DNA from: an uncultured Clostridia bacterium
GTDB taxonomy: Bacteria; Bacillota; Clostridia; Christensenellales; UBA1242
Length of the DNA: 64,000 nucleotides
Direction of reading: 5' to 3'
NCBI GenBank assembly: GCA_944372365.1
Contig: CALVYP010000002.1
Location: 185,369-249,368, forward strand
The notes beneath the pieces were generated by a model, which was not told the DNA's origin, did not search any database, and saw only the letters and a program-made list of their open reading frames with translations. Position 1 is the first letter of the stretch. Every line of letters starts with the position of its first letter. Shown one piece after another: positions 1,305-5,688 of the stretch. The translations under genes and the position numbers were made by a program.

Positions 1305-2429
1305 ATGAGTTTTTTAACTGGGCTTCTTTATGTTGTTCTTGCAATAGTAATTTTGCTTTTCATGGTTTTGGTGCATGAGCTTGGGCATTACATTGCGGGA
1401 AGAATTTTGAAGTTTAAAATTGAAGAGTTTTCAATAGGGTTTGGCAAAGCTCTGTTTTCTCGCACAAACAAGCGTGGCGAAAAAATTTCGCTGCGCATTT
1501 TTCCTTTGGGTGGCTATTGCGCATTCAAGGGCGAGGGCGACGATGAAGACAACCCAGCCCCAGACGCTTTTAATGCGCAAAAACCTTGGAAAAGAATCAT
1601 CGTGTTTTTTGCTGGCGTGATTATGAATTTTTTAACAGCCGTGCTTTTTTCGCTGATTTTGCTTTGCACGGTTGGATATGATGTGCCACAAATTTCTTCC
1701 ACAACAGTCACTGTAAATGGTGAAAACAACCAAAGCATAACTTTTGAAGCTAAGGGTTTTGAAGAAGGTGATGTGGTTTTAAGAATAGACGGCACAAAGG
1801 TTGATTTTGCTTTTGGCGACACCTTTCAAAATTTGATTACCAAACAGCAGCAGGATGTTAAAAGCTTTGTAGAAGGTGGCGGAAATATTGAAGACTACTC
1901 TTTCTCTGCCGTTGTGCGCCGTGATGGCAAGCAGCAAGAAATTCAGGCAGGATTTAATTATGTTGTGTCATATAAAGATGACGGTCAAACCGTTGCATCG
2001 CAAGACTATCTTTTAGGCATCACATATTCGCCATATGTCTATTCTTTCTGGGAAGCACTTGGCAGGTGCTGGGAGTTTGCTTTTGGTTTGGCATGGTTCG
2101 TGTTGAAATCGCTGTGGCTTTTAATAACTTTCCAGCTTCCAATCAGCGCAGTAGGCGGCCCGATAACAACGATAACGACCATTGCATCAGCCACACAAAC
2201 CAACTGGCTGAACATGCTTATTTTAATCCCTATGATTTCTGCAAACCTTGCCGTGTTCAACATTTTGCCGTTTCCAGCGCTTGACGGCTCGCATGTGCTG
2301 TTTACAACAATAGAGTGGATTCGCAAAAAACCAATAAAGCGCAAGGTTGAAAACATGATTCATTTCATCGGCCTGTGCATACTTTTTGCCTTTGTGATTA
2401 TAGTTGACATTTTGCATTTTGTTCTGTAA
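1305..2429 (+). CDS. rseP: Site-2 intramembrane zinc metalloprotease (RseP/RasP family)
   Basis: Cuts transmembrane segments of anti-sigma factors and signal-peptide remnants inside the membrane. The zinc motif HELGH is at residues 24-28 in the first membrane helix, and the second metal motif NILPFPALDG lies near residue 322. A PDZ-like region of about 150 residues lies between them (FEEGDVVLRIDGTKV), and the C-terminal end is hydrophobic. At 374 aa the length fits the family. The gene follows cdsA by 7 nt and precedes the PolC-like gene by 9 nt. ispG, often found downstream in Clostridia, is absent. Confidence 0.93.
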   Translation: MSFLTGLLYVVLAIVILLFMVLVHELGHYIAGRILKFKIEEFSIGFGKALFSRTNKRGEKISLRIFPLGGYCAFKGEGDDEDNPAPDAFNAQKPWKRIIVFFAGVIMNFLTAVLFSLILLCTVGYDVPQISSTTVTVNGENNQSITFEAKGFEEGDVVLRIDGTKVDFAFGDTFQNLITKQQQDVKSFVEGGGNIEDYSFSAVVRRDGKQQEIQAGFNYVVSYKDDGQTVASQDYLLGITYSPYVYSFWEALGRCWEFAFGLAWFVLKSLWLLITFQLPISAVGGPITTITTIASATQTNWLNMLILIPMISANLAVFNILPFPALDGSHVLFTTIEWIRKKPIKRKVENMIHFIGLCILFAFVIIVDILHFVL

Positions 2430-2438
2430 AATTAGGCT

Positions 2439-3965
2439 ATGGATGAATTTTCAACAAAACTTTTTTCATTTGAAAATCAAAAATATAGTTTTTTAAAGCT
2501 GTATAAAGTCACATACGACACTCAACAAAACCTATGTGAAATAACTTTTTTGTATCCAGAAACCATGACGCAAATTGACAAACCGATGCGCGACGAGCTT
2601 CAAAAATTTGCAGAAAATAATTTAAACATCAACGCAAAAATCAAGGTTAAATTTAAGCGCAGCTTTTTAGATGAGCGCTTGCTTAATGCACAAATAATCA
2701 AATTTTTTAAAAATAATTATAAGTCTATCTCTTCGTTTTTGACAGAGAAGCAAATTGAAATTCAAAAACAGGGCGAAAAAATTTTAATAAACTTAAACTT
2801 CGCAAAAGAAGTTTTTCAACTTTTCAATTCAACCTTAGCCCAAAAGCAGTTGCTTAGCGAGTTGCAAGATAATTTTATCGGAGATTTTACAATTCAAGCT
2901 TATGAAAACGAAGATTTTAAAATCGCAGATATAATTCCAGATGTTCCAATCAAAGTTCCGCCAAAAAAAGTTGTTAGATATCAAGTTGAGCCGATTAAAA
3001 AATTGTTTGGCAAGGATATCTCTCCAAATCCTGAGCTAATTAAAAACAACACTCATCCTAAGCCGAGTGTAATTTTGTTTGGCAAAATTTCAAACTTACA
3101 GAAAAAAACGTTCACCGCTAAACACGGCAAAAACAAGGGCGAAGAAAAGGTTTATTACACCTTTGTTTTGGATGATTCAAGCAAAATCGACTGCGTTTAT
3201 TTTTCAACAAAAACCAATCAAAAAAAATGCGAAGCACTTGCTGACGGCATGAGTTTTCTTTGCCTTGGCGACATAAAAATTGGCATAACCGACAAGCCAA
3301 CTTATTACATAAACGCAATGACGTATGCGCAAATCAAAACTCAGCCGCAAGAGCTTGAAGAAGAAATCGAAAGCGCGGGCGTGGTTAAAATTGAAGATTA
3401 TTTCGAGCATAAGCAAGAAAATATTTTTTGCAAACAACCAACTTATAAAGAGCCAATTTCATCGCGCGACATTGTGGTTTATGACCTTGAAACCACGGGG
3501 CTTGATCCAGAATTTTGTGATATTATTGAAATTGGCGCAATAAAAATTGAAAAGGGCAGAATCACAAAAAAATTTGCAACTTTTGTCAATCCAGGCAAAC
3601 ATATTCCAGACGAGGCAACTGCAATAAACCACATCACCGACGATATGGTGGCATCTGCTCCTAAAATTGAAGATGTTATTTTGGATTTTTACAAGTTTTG
3701 CGAAGGCTGCATAATTTCGGGTTACAACAACAACGGCTTTGATAACAATTTCTTAAAAAAAGCATATCAAAAAGCGGGATTAAAGTTTAATCCAGAAAGC
3801 CTAGATGTCATGCTGCTTGCAAGGGCCGGCGGCGTTAAAACATCAAATTTTAAACTTACAACCGTTGCCGCGGCGCTTGGAATTGATCTTTCAAACGCAC
3901 ACCGCGCGTATAACGACGCATTTGCAACTGCAAAAGTTTTGCTAAAACTCAATGAAATTGTTTAA
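2439..3965 (+). CDS. PolC-like protein with N-terminal, OB-fold and DEDDh exonuclease domains but no polymerase
   Basis: The first 200 residues resemble the N-terminal domain of Gram-positive PolC. An OB-fold region follows (about 205-300, including GKISNLQKKTFTAKHGKNKG), and then a complete DEDDh 3'-5' exonuclease from about residue 345. Exo I is YDLETTGLD, Exo II is GYNNNGFDNNFL and Exo III is HRAYNDAFATAKVL, so all catalytic acids and the His are kept. The protein ends there at 508 aa; PolC is normally about 1,400 aa with PHP, palm, fingers and thumb. The next 98 nt hold a promoter and then rimP, so this is not a simple frameshift. It could act as a separate proofreading subunit or a repair nuclease. 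The position after rseP is where polC often sits. Confidence 0.85.
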   Translation: MDEFSTKLFSFENQKYSFLKLYKVTYDTQQNLCEITFLYPETMTQIDKPMRDELQKFAENNLNINAKIKVKFKRSFLDERLLNAQIIKFFKNNYKSISSFLTEKQIEIQKQGEKILINLNFAKEVFQLFNSTLAQKQLLSELQDNFIGDFTIQAYENEDFKIADIIPDVPIKVPPKKVVRYQVEPIKKLFGKDISPNPELIKNNTHPKPSVILFGKISNLQKKTFTAKHGKNKGEEKVYYTFVLDDSSKIDCVYFSTKTNQKKCEALADGMSFLCLGDIKIGITDKPTYYINAMTYAQIKTQPQELEEEIESAGVVKIEDYFEHKQENIFCKQPTYKEPISSRDIVVYDLETTGLDPEFCDIIEIGAIKIEKGRITKKFATFVNPGKHIPDEATAINHITDDMVASAPKIEDVILDFYKFCEGCIISGYNNNGFDNNFLKKAYQKAGLKFNPESLDVMLLARAGGVKTSNFKLTTVAAALGIDLSNAHRAYNDAFATAKVLLKLNEIV

Positions 3966-3970
3966 ATCTC

Positions 3971-3999
3971 TTGATTTTATGGGAATAATATGCTATAAT
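3971..3999 (+). promoter_or_regulatory. Sigma-A promoter of the rimP-nusA-infB operon
   Basis: TTGATT (3971-3976), a 17-nt spacer, then TATAAT (3994-3999) with an extended -10 TGC just before it. It lies in the only sizeable gap before the long translation operon. Confidence 0.8.
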
Positions 4000-4063: not shown

Positions 4064-4522
4064 TTGATTAAAGTCAAAGAAGTTTGCAAACAAAAGTTGC
4101 AACCGATAATCGAACAAAACGGCTATGAGCTTGTTGATGTAGAATACAAAAAAGAAGCAAACGGCATGAATTTAATTTTCACAATAGATTGCGACAACGG
4201 CGTGACGATTGATGATTGCGAACGCATTCACAAGATTATAGACCCAATTTTAGATGAAATCAATCCAACCGAAGATAAGCCATACATCTTGTCTGTCAGC
4301 TCACCGGGGATTGACAGGCCGCTTAAAAGCGATCGAGATTTTAAGCGAAATATGGGTGGCGAGATTGAAATCACTCTTTTCAAAAAACTTGATGGCAAAA
4401 AGAAGTTTACAGGTGTGCTTGAAAATTTTGACGAGAGACAAGTTACAATCAAAATTGATGGCACAAACCAAAGTTTTAACAGAGATATAATTGCACACAT
4501 CGTGCCAGTTATAAAATTTTAA
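4064..4522 (+). CDS. rimP: Ribosome maturation factor RimP
   Basis: Assists late assembly of the 30S subunit. The 152-aa protein has the usual N-terminal alpha/beta domain (GYELVDVEYKKE, then VTIDDCERIHKIIDPILDE) and the conserved YILSVSSPGIDRPLK motif before a C-terminal SH3-like domain. The start is TTG at 4064, chosen because GAAGGAGG lies 5-6 nt upstream. It is first in the operon and 11 nt before nusA, the standard order. Confidence 0.95.
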   Translation: MIKVKEVCKQKLQPIIEQNGYELVDVEYKKEANGMNLIFTIDCDNGVTIDDCERIHKIIDPILDEINPTEDKPYILSVSSPGIDRPLKSDRDFKRNMGGEIEITLFKKLDGKKKFTGVLENFDERQVTIKIDGTNQSFNRDIIAHIVPVIKF

Positions 4523-4533
4523 AGGAGAATAAA

Positions 4534-5688
4534 ATGATAAACAAAGATTTTTTTCAAGCATTAGATGATTTAGAAACCGAAAAGAAAATCAATAAAGAAA
4601 AATTTATTGAGGCGCTTGAATTTGCACTCACATCCGCTTATAAAAAAATGTATGGCGAAGCAAAGAGCGCAAGCGTAAAACTTTATCCAGAAAAAAACAC
4701 CATCAAAATTTATTCCTACAAAACGGTGGTGGATGAAGTTGCCGATCCTGACAAAGAAATCTCTCTTGACGAGGCAAGACTGATTAAAAAGTCATATAAA
4801 CTTGGCGACGAAGTTGCAACCGAAGAAACCACTAAGGATTTTGGAAGAATCGCTGCGCAAACTGCTAAGCAAGTTGTTATGCAAAAGCTTAAAGAACTTG
4901 AAAGAGATATGGCAGTTGCCGAAATTTCTGAAAAGGAAGACGAGCTTTTAACAACCATCATCAAGCGCATAGATAATGGCACGGTTTATGTTCAAATCTC
5001 AGGCTCGCATGTTGAAGGAATCATGCTGCCATCCGATCAAATCCCTGGTGAAAAATATGAAGTTGGTCAAAGAATCAAGGTTTATGTTAAAAAAATCAAA
5101 GATTCTTTCCGCGGCCCTCAAATTCAAGTTACACGAAGCAACATCGGCTTTGTGAGAAAAATATTTGAACTTGAAATTCCAGAAATTGCTTCTGGCGATG
5201 TAAAAATCAAAAACATAGCTCGTGATCCGGGCAGCAGAAGCAAGGTTGCAATCTTCACCGAAAAAGCAAACATCGATCCTGTTGGCGCATGCGTGGGCAA
5301 CCATGGCATAAGAATCAACACCATTGTAAGTGAACTTAATGGCGAAAAAATTGATTTAATTTTGTATAGCGACGATCCGCTTGAATACATTGCAAGGTCG
5401 CTTAGCCCAGCCAAAGTTTTAAGCGTTGAAACAAACGAAAGCTTAAATGCATCCAGAGTTATTGTTCCAGACGACAAGCTTTCGCTTGCAATCGGCAAAA
5501 ATGGTCAAAATGTAAGGCTTGCTGCAAGGCTGACGGGTTGGAAAATTGAAGTTAAACCTGAAAGCTCGCTTGGCAAAACAAGTGAGCAGCCTAAGGAAGT
5601 TGAATACGAGCTTACAGATCTTGATGAAAACGATTCATTTGCAACATTTGACGATCTTGAAGAAATAACAGGAGAGAATGATGAATAA
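4534..5688 (+). CDS. nusA: Transcription termination/antitermination factor NusA
   Basis: Binds RNA polymerase and modulates pausing, termination and antitermination. The 384-aa Gram-positive short form has the N-terminal polymerase-binding domain, an S1 domain (about residues 135-200), and two KH regions (for example VGACVGNHGIRINTIVSEL and LAIGKNGQNVRLAARLTGW). It lacks the acidic repeats of the E. coli protein. A strong AAAGGAG site precedes ATG. It overlaps ylxR by 11 nt. Confidence 0.96.
   Translation: MINKDFFQALDDLETEKKINKEKFIEALEFALTSAYKKMYGEAKSASVKLYPEKNTIKIYSYKTVVDEVADPDKEISLDEARLIKKSYKLGDEVATEETTKDFGRIAAQTAKQVVMQKLKELERDMAVAEISEKEDELLTTIIKRIDNGTVYVQISGSHVEGIMLPSDQIPGEKYEVGQRIKVYVKKIKDSFRGPQIQVTRSNIGFVRKIFELEIPEIASGDVKIKNIARDPGSRSKVAIFTEKANIDPVGACVGNHGIRINTIVSELNGEKIDLILYSDDPLEYIARSLSPAKVLSVETNESLNASRVIVPDDKLSLAIGKNGQNVRLAARLTGWKIEVKPESSLGKTSEQPKEVEYELTDLDENDSFATFDDLEEITGENDE

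Follow-up and report, generated by a model that had tools for sequence, protein, structure and literature searches.

A PolC-derived protein devoid of polymerase and PHP domain in a clade of Clostridia, a candidate clamp-bound proofreader beside DnaE1

In one order of Clostridia, the members of a large clade carry, at the usual place of polC, a gene whose product has kept the N-terminal modules, OB fold and DEDDh exonuclease of PolC and has lost the whole polymerase. The gene described here lies in a window of 64,000 nucleotides (the whole stretch of DNA analysed) from an uncultured Clostridia bacterium. Our preferred explanation, to which a probability of roughly 0.68 was assigned, is that polC was remodelled once, anciently, into a clamp-riding exonuclease that most likely trims 3' ends left mismatched by DnaE1. 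Domain loss, orthology (domain order and genomic place), the DnaE1-only state, the intact catalytic residues, the conserved motif and the single origin are all established at the sequence level; we infer that the PolC-derived exonuclease proofreads DnaE1.

According to this scenario, the remodelling would have taken place in the ancestor of the clade, by deletion of both PHP halves and of the entire polymerase and with retention of the KH-like modules, the OB fold and the exonuclease. The C-terminal clamp motif of PolC would have gone with the polymerase, a new QxxLF-type motif would have appeared in the short linker preceding the exonuclease, and DnaE1 would have been left as the only replicative polymerase. 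The protein would ride the sliding clamp and trim mismatched 3' ends from DnaE1, perhaps also from repair polymerases. In this it would resemble a free epsilon subunit and provide a second proofreader in addition to the intact PHP site of DnaE1. A precedent for such an action in trans was reported in B. subtilis, where the PolC exonuclease proofreads DnaE (cited in PMC12926913).

Table 1. Coordinates of the PolC-derived gene, its domains and its neighbours (positions in the window)
Feature	Position	Strand	Remarks
rseP	1305..2429	+	Upstream neighbour of the PolC-derived gene
Polymerase-less, PHP-less PolC-derived protein	2439..3965	+	508-aa ORF, whole gene
N-terminal region, two KH-like subdomains equivalent to PolC NI/NII	2439..2948	+	Residues 1-170
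OB fold	2985..3338	+	Residues 183-300; all-beta in the AF2 model
Linker	3339..3467	+	Residues 301-343; occupies the place of PolC's first PHP half (alignment with 5 full PolCs)
Clamp-binding-type pentapeptide QENIF	3414..3428	+	Residues 326-330, in the linker
DEDDh 3'-5' exonuclease domain	3468..3956	+	Residues 344-506; Pfam RNase_T
Promoter-like site TTGATT-N17-TATAAT	3971..3999	+	TG precedes the second hexamer; ahead of rimP
rimP	4064..4522	+	Downstream neighbour; TTG start at 4064
nusA	4534-5688		After rimP; followed by ylxR and infB

The first-pass annotation had described a PolC-like N-terminal region, an OB fold and a complete DEDDh exonuclease with no polymerase, a description borne out by hhalign, Pfam and PDB matches. 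The N-terminal part and the OB fold were collinear with positions 25-304 of a PolC profile (hhalign, E=8.5e-15). Taken separately, the OB fold matched full-length PolC of the order at E=1.1e-12 and the KH-like part matched full PolC weakly (hhalign, E=1e-3); in Pfam, the OB region resembled tRNA_anti_2 at E=0.0013, under the cut-off. The AF2 model of the protein (mean pLDDT 89.6, pTM 0.43) displayed two KH-like units, OB fold, linker and exonuclease in that order. Its residues 1-170 formed two consecutive beta-beta-alpha-beta units with pLDDT mostly between 84 and 94, and the linker was, residues 161-180 aside, the part of lowest confidence. The top multi-domain match in Foldseek was S. aureus PolC (9qpc, 394 columns, E=3.6e-17).

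In PolC, the exonuclease is inserted within the PHP domain (PMC3919608), and five full-length PolCs of the order displayed about 85 PHP residues between OB fold and exonuclease (VELHLHT..MDG..TDHG..EAY). Both this stretch and any sequence past the exonuclease were absent from the window protein and from 26 aligned relatives, which means that both PHP halves were removed together with the polymerase; the PF07733 polymerase core was likewise not found at the locus. The length of 508 aa given earlier was correct, but the implied normal PolC front end was not. Judged from the alignment, the protein is more than a simple truncation, since its first PHP half was lost internally as well.

The exonuclease domain matched Pfam RNase_T with E=1.6e-32 (113.7 bits), and its catalytic set was complete (D349, E351, D435, H488 and D493, borne by the motifs DLETTGLD, NNNGFDNNFL and HRAYNDA). 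The best NCBIfam match of the window protein was the PolC-type Pol III PRK00448 (E=8.8e-42, PolC positions 417-585), and the best PDB match of the exonuclease was the PolC exonuclease domain of T. maritima (2p1j, E=1.5e-25). With TIGR01405 (PolC) the protein scored 129 bits, over the exonuclease part only and below the cut-off of 1043 bits. It scored 99.6 bits with the broad TIGR00573 (cut-off 71.5) and 59.9 bits with the equivalog TIGR01406 (cut-off 222.7). A tree of exonucleases alone, which displayed long branches, did not resolve the origin of the window exonuclease; descent from PolC was drawn from domain order, N-terminal homology and synteny. Catalytic residues were intact in 54/54 proteins outside families f17 and f20, 14 of the 16 families that carry the protein keeping them strictly. 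The window protein, which is the sole RNase_T/DEDDh-family member of its genome, is predicted to have 3'-5' exonuclease activity.

The gene order rseP-polC'-rimP-nusA-ylxR-infB was conserved in polymerase-less lineages. More precisely, rseP was kept on the 5' side in most polymerase-less families, often at a distance of about 1 kb, and rimP and nusA also come after full-length polC in related genomes, in agreement with the polC-type position proposed at first. The promoter and rimP noticed downstream were found as well (Table 1), the promoter-like site giving 10/12 matches in a consensus scan. Within the genus, dN/dS was about 0.06-0.10 (NG86; rough values, dS being near saturation), and comparison of the sequences indicates that the gene is under purifying selection. 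This low ratio and conservation across 16 families sustain the earlier statement that no decay is in progress.

Orthologues, 448 to 610 aa long, occurred in 16 families of the order. In the window's genus, the form of about 510 aa was present in 37/37 sampled genomes, two of which matched in two pieces. Across the order, 151 genomes from 33 families were compared. The 87 genomes of 16 families (f1, f3, f6, f8, f9, f10, f14, f15, f17, f19, f20, f21, f25, f29, f30 and f32) had no PolC scoring above the TIGR01405 cut-off; the other 17 families had one in 54/64 genomes, and the 10 negative genomes among them were mostly fragmented or incomplete assemblies (family counts were compiled by hand from tables). 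The 21 polymerase-less lineages sampled formed one clade in the DnaE1 tree (100/100). Once rooted on ten DnaE1 sequences from the rest of the class, the tree placed this clade among PolC-bearing families (SH-aLRT 100) on a stem of 0.40 changes/site, so that the change is a single and old one. The long DnaE1 stem, located where the PolC polymerase vanished, suggests an adaptation of DnaE1 or a change of job. Also overlooked in the first-pass annotation is that the protein is no oddity of a single genome, the state being ancient and clade-wide.

This distribution (37/37 genomes of the genus, 16 families, one origin) excluded a frameshift, ongoing decay or an assembly artefact. It also bears on the reading of the protein as one piece of a PolC split in two, or as a decaying PolC, for which the presence of the PolC front half only could be invoked. 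Neither the window genome nor any other sampled member of the polymerase-less families contained a polymerase half, the ORFs are intact and of one ancient origin with low dN/dS, and the internal loss of PHP-N does not fit either; the probability of this reading is practically nil, and the split PolC considered earlier was abandoned.

The search was extended to 156 genomes sampled from the class, where the long matches found beyond the order lay in full-length PolC ORFs. A few isolated cases were recorded besides. At G303:C1:206804-207445, a 481-aa ORF covered profile positions 293-506 (end of the OB fold, linker and exonuclease), a full-length PolC being encoded in the same genome. In an uncultured member of Eubacteriales (L041:7887-9886), two adjacent ORFs of 325 aa each displayed a PolC-like DEDDh domain. 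Genome G074 (96% complete) had no PolC although its family, f11, has it, perhaps through a separate loss. Its 307-aa exonuclease ORF (L154), adjacent to a cas1-like gene and CRISPR-like repeats, was set aside as unrelated since it looks like a Cas2-DEDDh fusion.

The window genome (862,550 bp, 8 contigs, 100% complete) was searched for polC and dnaE, as the first-pass annotation had proposed. A single PF07733 match was found genome-wide, in a DnaE of 1204 aa that scored above the cut-off set for PRK06826, a DnaE equivalog, and no PolC polymerase was present. None of the nine PHP metal ligands was missing from this DnaE1, which also displayed a clamp motif (QFSMF, residue 944). The PHP metal site of DnaE1 was intact in 21/21 sampled genomes. 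The possibility that the PolC-derived exonuclease had become the only proofreader through decay of the DnaE1 PHP site was discarded, the ligands being intact in both groups. It would therefore probably be a second proofreader, and one that is not obviously needed. The genome also encodes MutS. As to DnaX (G000:C1:142565-143620), its open frame reached only 371-410 aa in the seven genomes seen of the window's genus (g1). The sister genus has a frame of 480 aa, and almost every other family one of about 500-760 aa; judged from open-frame length, the tau-specific tail seems to have been lost in genus g1.

The linker contains the pentapeptide QENIF, a clamp-binding-type motif of the kind sought after the first reading and conserved in the clade. 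The experimental clamp-binding consensus is QL[S/D]LF, or in its general form QxxLF, of which positions 1, 4 and 5 are critical (PMC12309361). Q326, like the catalytic residues, was conserved in at least 90% of an alignment of 40 proteins. The pattern Qxx[LIMF][FL] occurred in the linker of 50/54 catalytically intact proteins against 2.4 expected from linker shuffling, and outside the linker of the same proteins at a rate of only 0.03 per 45 residues. Ten full-length PolCs had no such motif at this place and displayed it C-terminally instead (e.g. QLSLFD at residue 1439 of L060). An intact active site without linker motif was encountered in f6 (2/2, L093 and L136), in f30 and in one of the four f15 members. 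Binding of QENIF to the sliding clamp is predicted.

Among the three roles envisaged in the first-pass annotation (stand-alone proofreader for a DnaE-type replicase, separated PolC half, repair nuclease), the first was the best supported by these data, i.e. by the single DnaE1, the missing PolC polymerase and the conserved motif. What had been overlooked is that DnaE1 has an intact PHP site of its own and that two families have a dead exonuclease (see below); the earlier interpretation is, on the whole, partly supported. The protein could instead be a nuclease for repair or primer processing, brought by the clamp to 3' ends during mismatch or gap repair or Okazaki maturation, and no replicative proofreader. 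A clamp motif combined with an OB fold fits many repair factors, proofreading is already available from the PHP site of DnaE1, MutS is present, and a sole DEDDh protein could serve as a general 3' exonuclease. Yet it was the replicative polymerase that gave rise to both architecture and locus, and DnaE1 became the sole replicase at the time of this change; we regard this alternative as unlikely. The role is probably either that of a second proofreader or that of a clamp-linked repair exonuclease, between which sequence does not separate.

Families f17 and f20 distinguished themselves by the loss of the catalytic set, which was kept in 0/15 proteins whose residues were read (L099, L101, L138-L141, L143-L146, L148-L151 and L155; eight genomes sampled per family). 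Their ORFs, of about 485-548 aa, displayed the same architecture and amino-acid conservation between members, and the two examined for context (L099 and L101) occupied the same polC locus. Modelled with AF2, an f20 member had a similar fold (mean pLDDT 84.1), again with 9qpc as best Foldseek match. The strict motif was encountered in one of the 15 dead proteins, out of place, most f20 members keeping a relaxed QxxF[VT]; this joint loss or relaxation suggests that motif and catalysis go together. In three f20 genomes (G082, G122 and G168), the family profile matched only once at E<=1e-5, and these bacteria would seem to rely on PHP proofreading by DnaE1. A joint clade of f17 and f20 was not rejected by the AU test (p=0.07), so that one or two losses of catalysis are both compatible with the data.

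Since the protein was kept without its catalytic residues, exonuclease activity cannot be its sole or essential role in f17 and f20, and a structural role may exist as well. Carried further, the argument would make the protein mainly a structural part of the replisome, bridging DnaE1, DNA and the clamp by means of its OB fold, its clamp motif and its N-terminal modules, which are relatives of tau domain V, with the exonuclease being secondary. The fold and sequence conservation of the dead members would agree with this, as would the short DnaX of the window's genus, seemingly without tau tail. Strict maintenance of the catalytic residues in 14/16 families argues against it, as do the fate of the canonical motif in the dead forms (1/15) and the normal length of DnaX in those f17 and f20 genomes that have a complete gene; a mainly structural function is very unlikely. 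Rather unlikely, when taken as a whole, is an extended version of the proofreading scenario, in which a DnaE1-only replisome would use two unrelated proofreaders (PHP and a clamp-tethered PolC-derived exonuclease), the protein would be a catalytically dead scaffold in two families, and the tau tail lost from DnaX in the window's genus would be replaced by the KH-like (tau-V-like) modules of the protein.

PolC has been treated as an indivisible replicase. This clade apparently moved from PolC plus DnaE1 to DnaE1 alone while keeping the proofreading half, and it would record the simplification of a two-polymerase replisome in which part of a polymerase became a free proofreading subunit. These bacteria imply that DnaE1 is capable of all synthesis, which makes the respective roles of PolC and DnaE1 in Clostridia testable. 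PolC is a drug target, and polymerase-less bacteria should therefore lack the target of PolC inhibitors.

Surveys of C-family polymerases from 2013 and 2026 distinguished the sets DnaE1-only, PolC plus DnaE1 and PolC plus DnaE3, as well as PolCs without exonuclease (PMC3919608 and PMC12926913, parts consulted). A polymerase-less PolC was not found in these parts of the two surveys, nor in the open-access literature searched. As they dealt with complete genomes and the genomes gathered here are largely uncultured, the surveys would have missed the clade.

The closest known system is full PolC itself (B. subtilis, S. aureus and sister families), with the same order of NI/NII, OB fold and DEDDh exonuclease, the same place ahead of rimP-nusA, a clamp-type motif and, in most comparisons, the nearest exonucleases. 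Unlike full PolC, the window protein has neither PHP halves nor polymerase nor HhH (about 510 versus about 1440 aa), ends with the exonuclease and displays its motif in the linker between OB fold and exonuclease instead of at the C-terminus. Like E. coli epsilon (DnaQ), it is a DEDDh exonuclease on a chain separate from that of a DnaE-type polymerase, and it has a clamp-type motif in a flexible linker (the weak QTSMAF in epsilon, PMC12309361), but it differs in ancestry, in its additional KH-like and OB domains, in the position of the motif ahead of the exonuclease and in the intact PHP site of its DnaE1 partner. A noncanonical mycobacterial DnaQ was reported to act synergistically with a PHP-proofreading DnaE1 (cited in PMC12926913) and is likewise an extra exonuclease beside such a polymerase; in contrast to it, the window protein is PolC-derived. 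PolA2/APEX of Actinobacteria has acquired a clamp motif inside a DnaQ-like fold or next to it, which recalls the dead members of f17 and f20, yet this is an A-family enzyme that has kept its polymerase (PMC12926913). Finally, the Exo-less PolCs of Clostridia and Negativicutes also arose by domain loss from PolC in bacteria with PolC and DnaE1 (PMC3919608) and form the mirror image of the present case: there the polymerase was kept and the exonuclease lost, here the exonuclease was kept and the polymerase lost.
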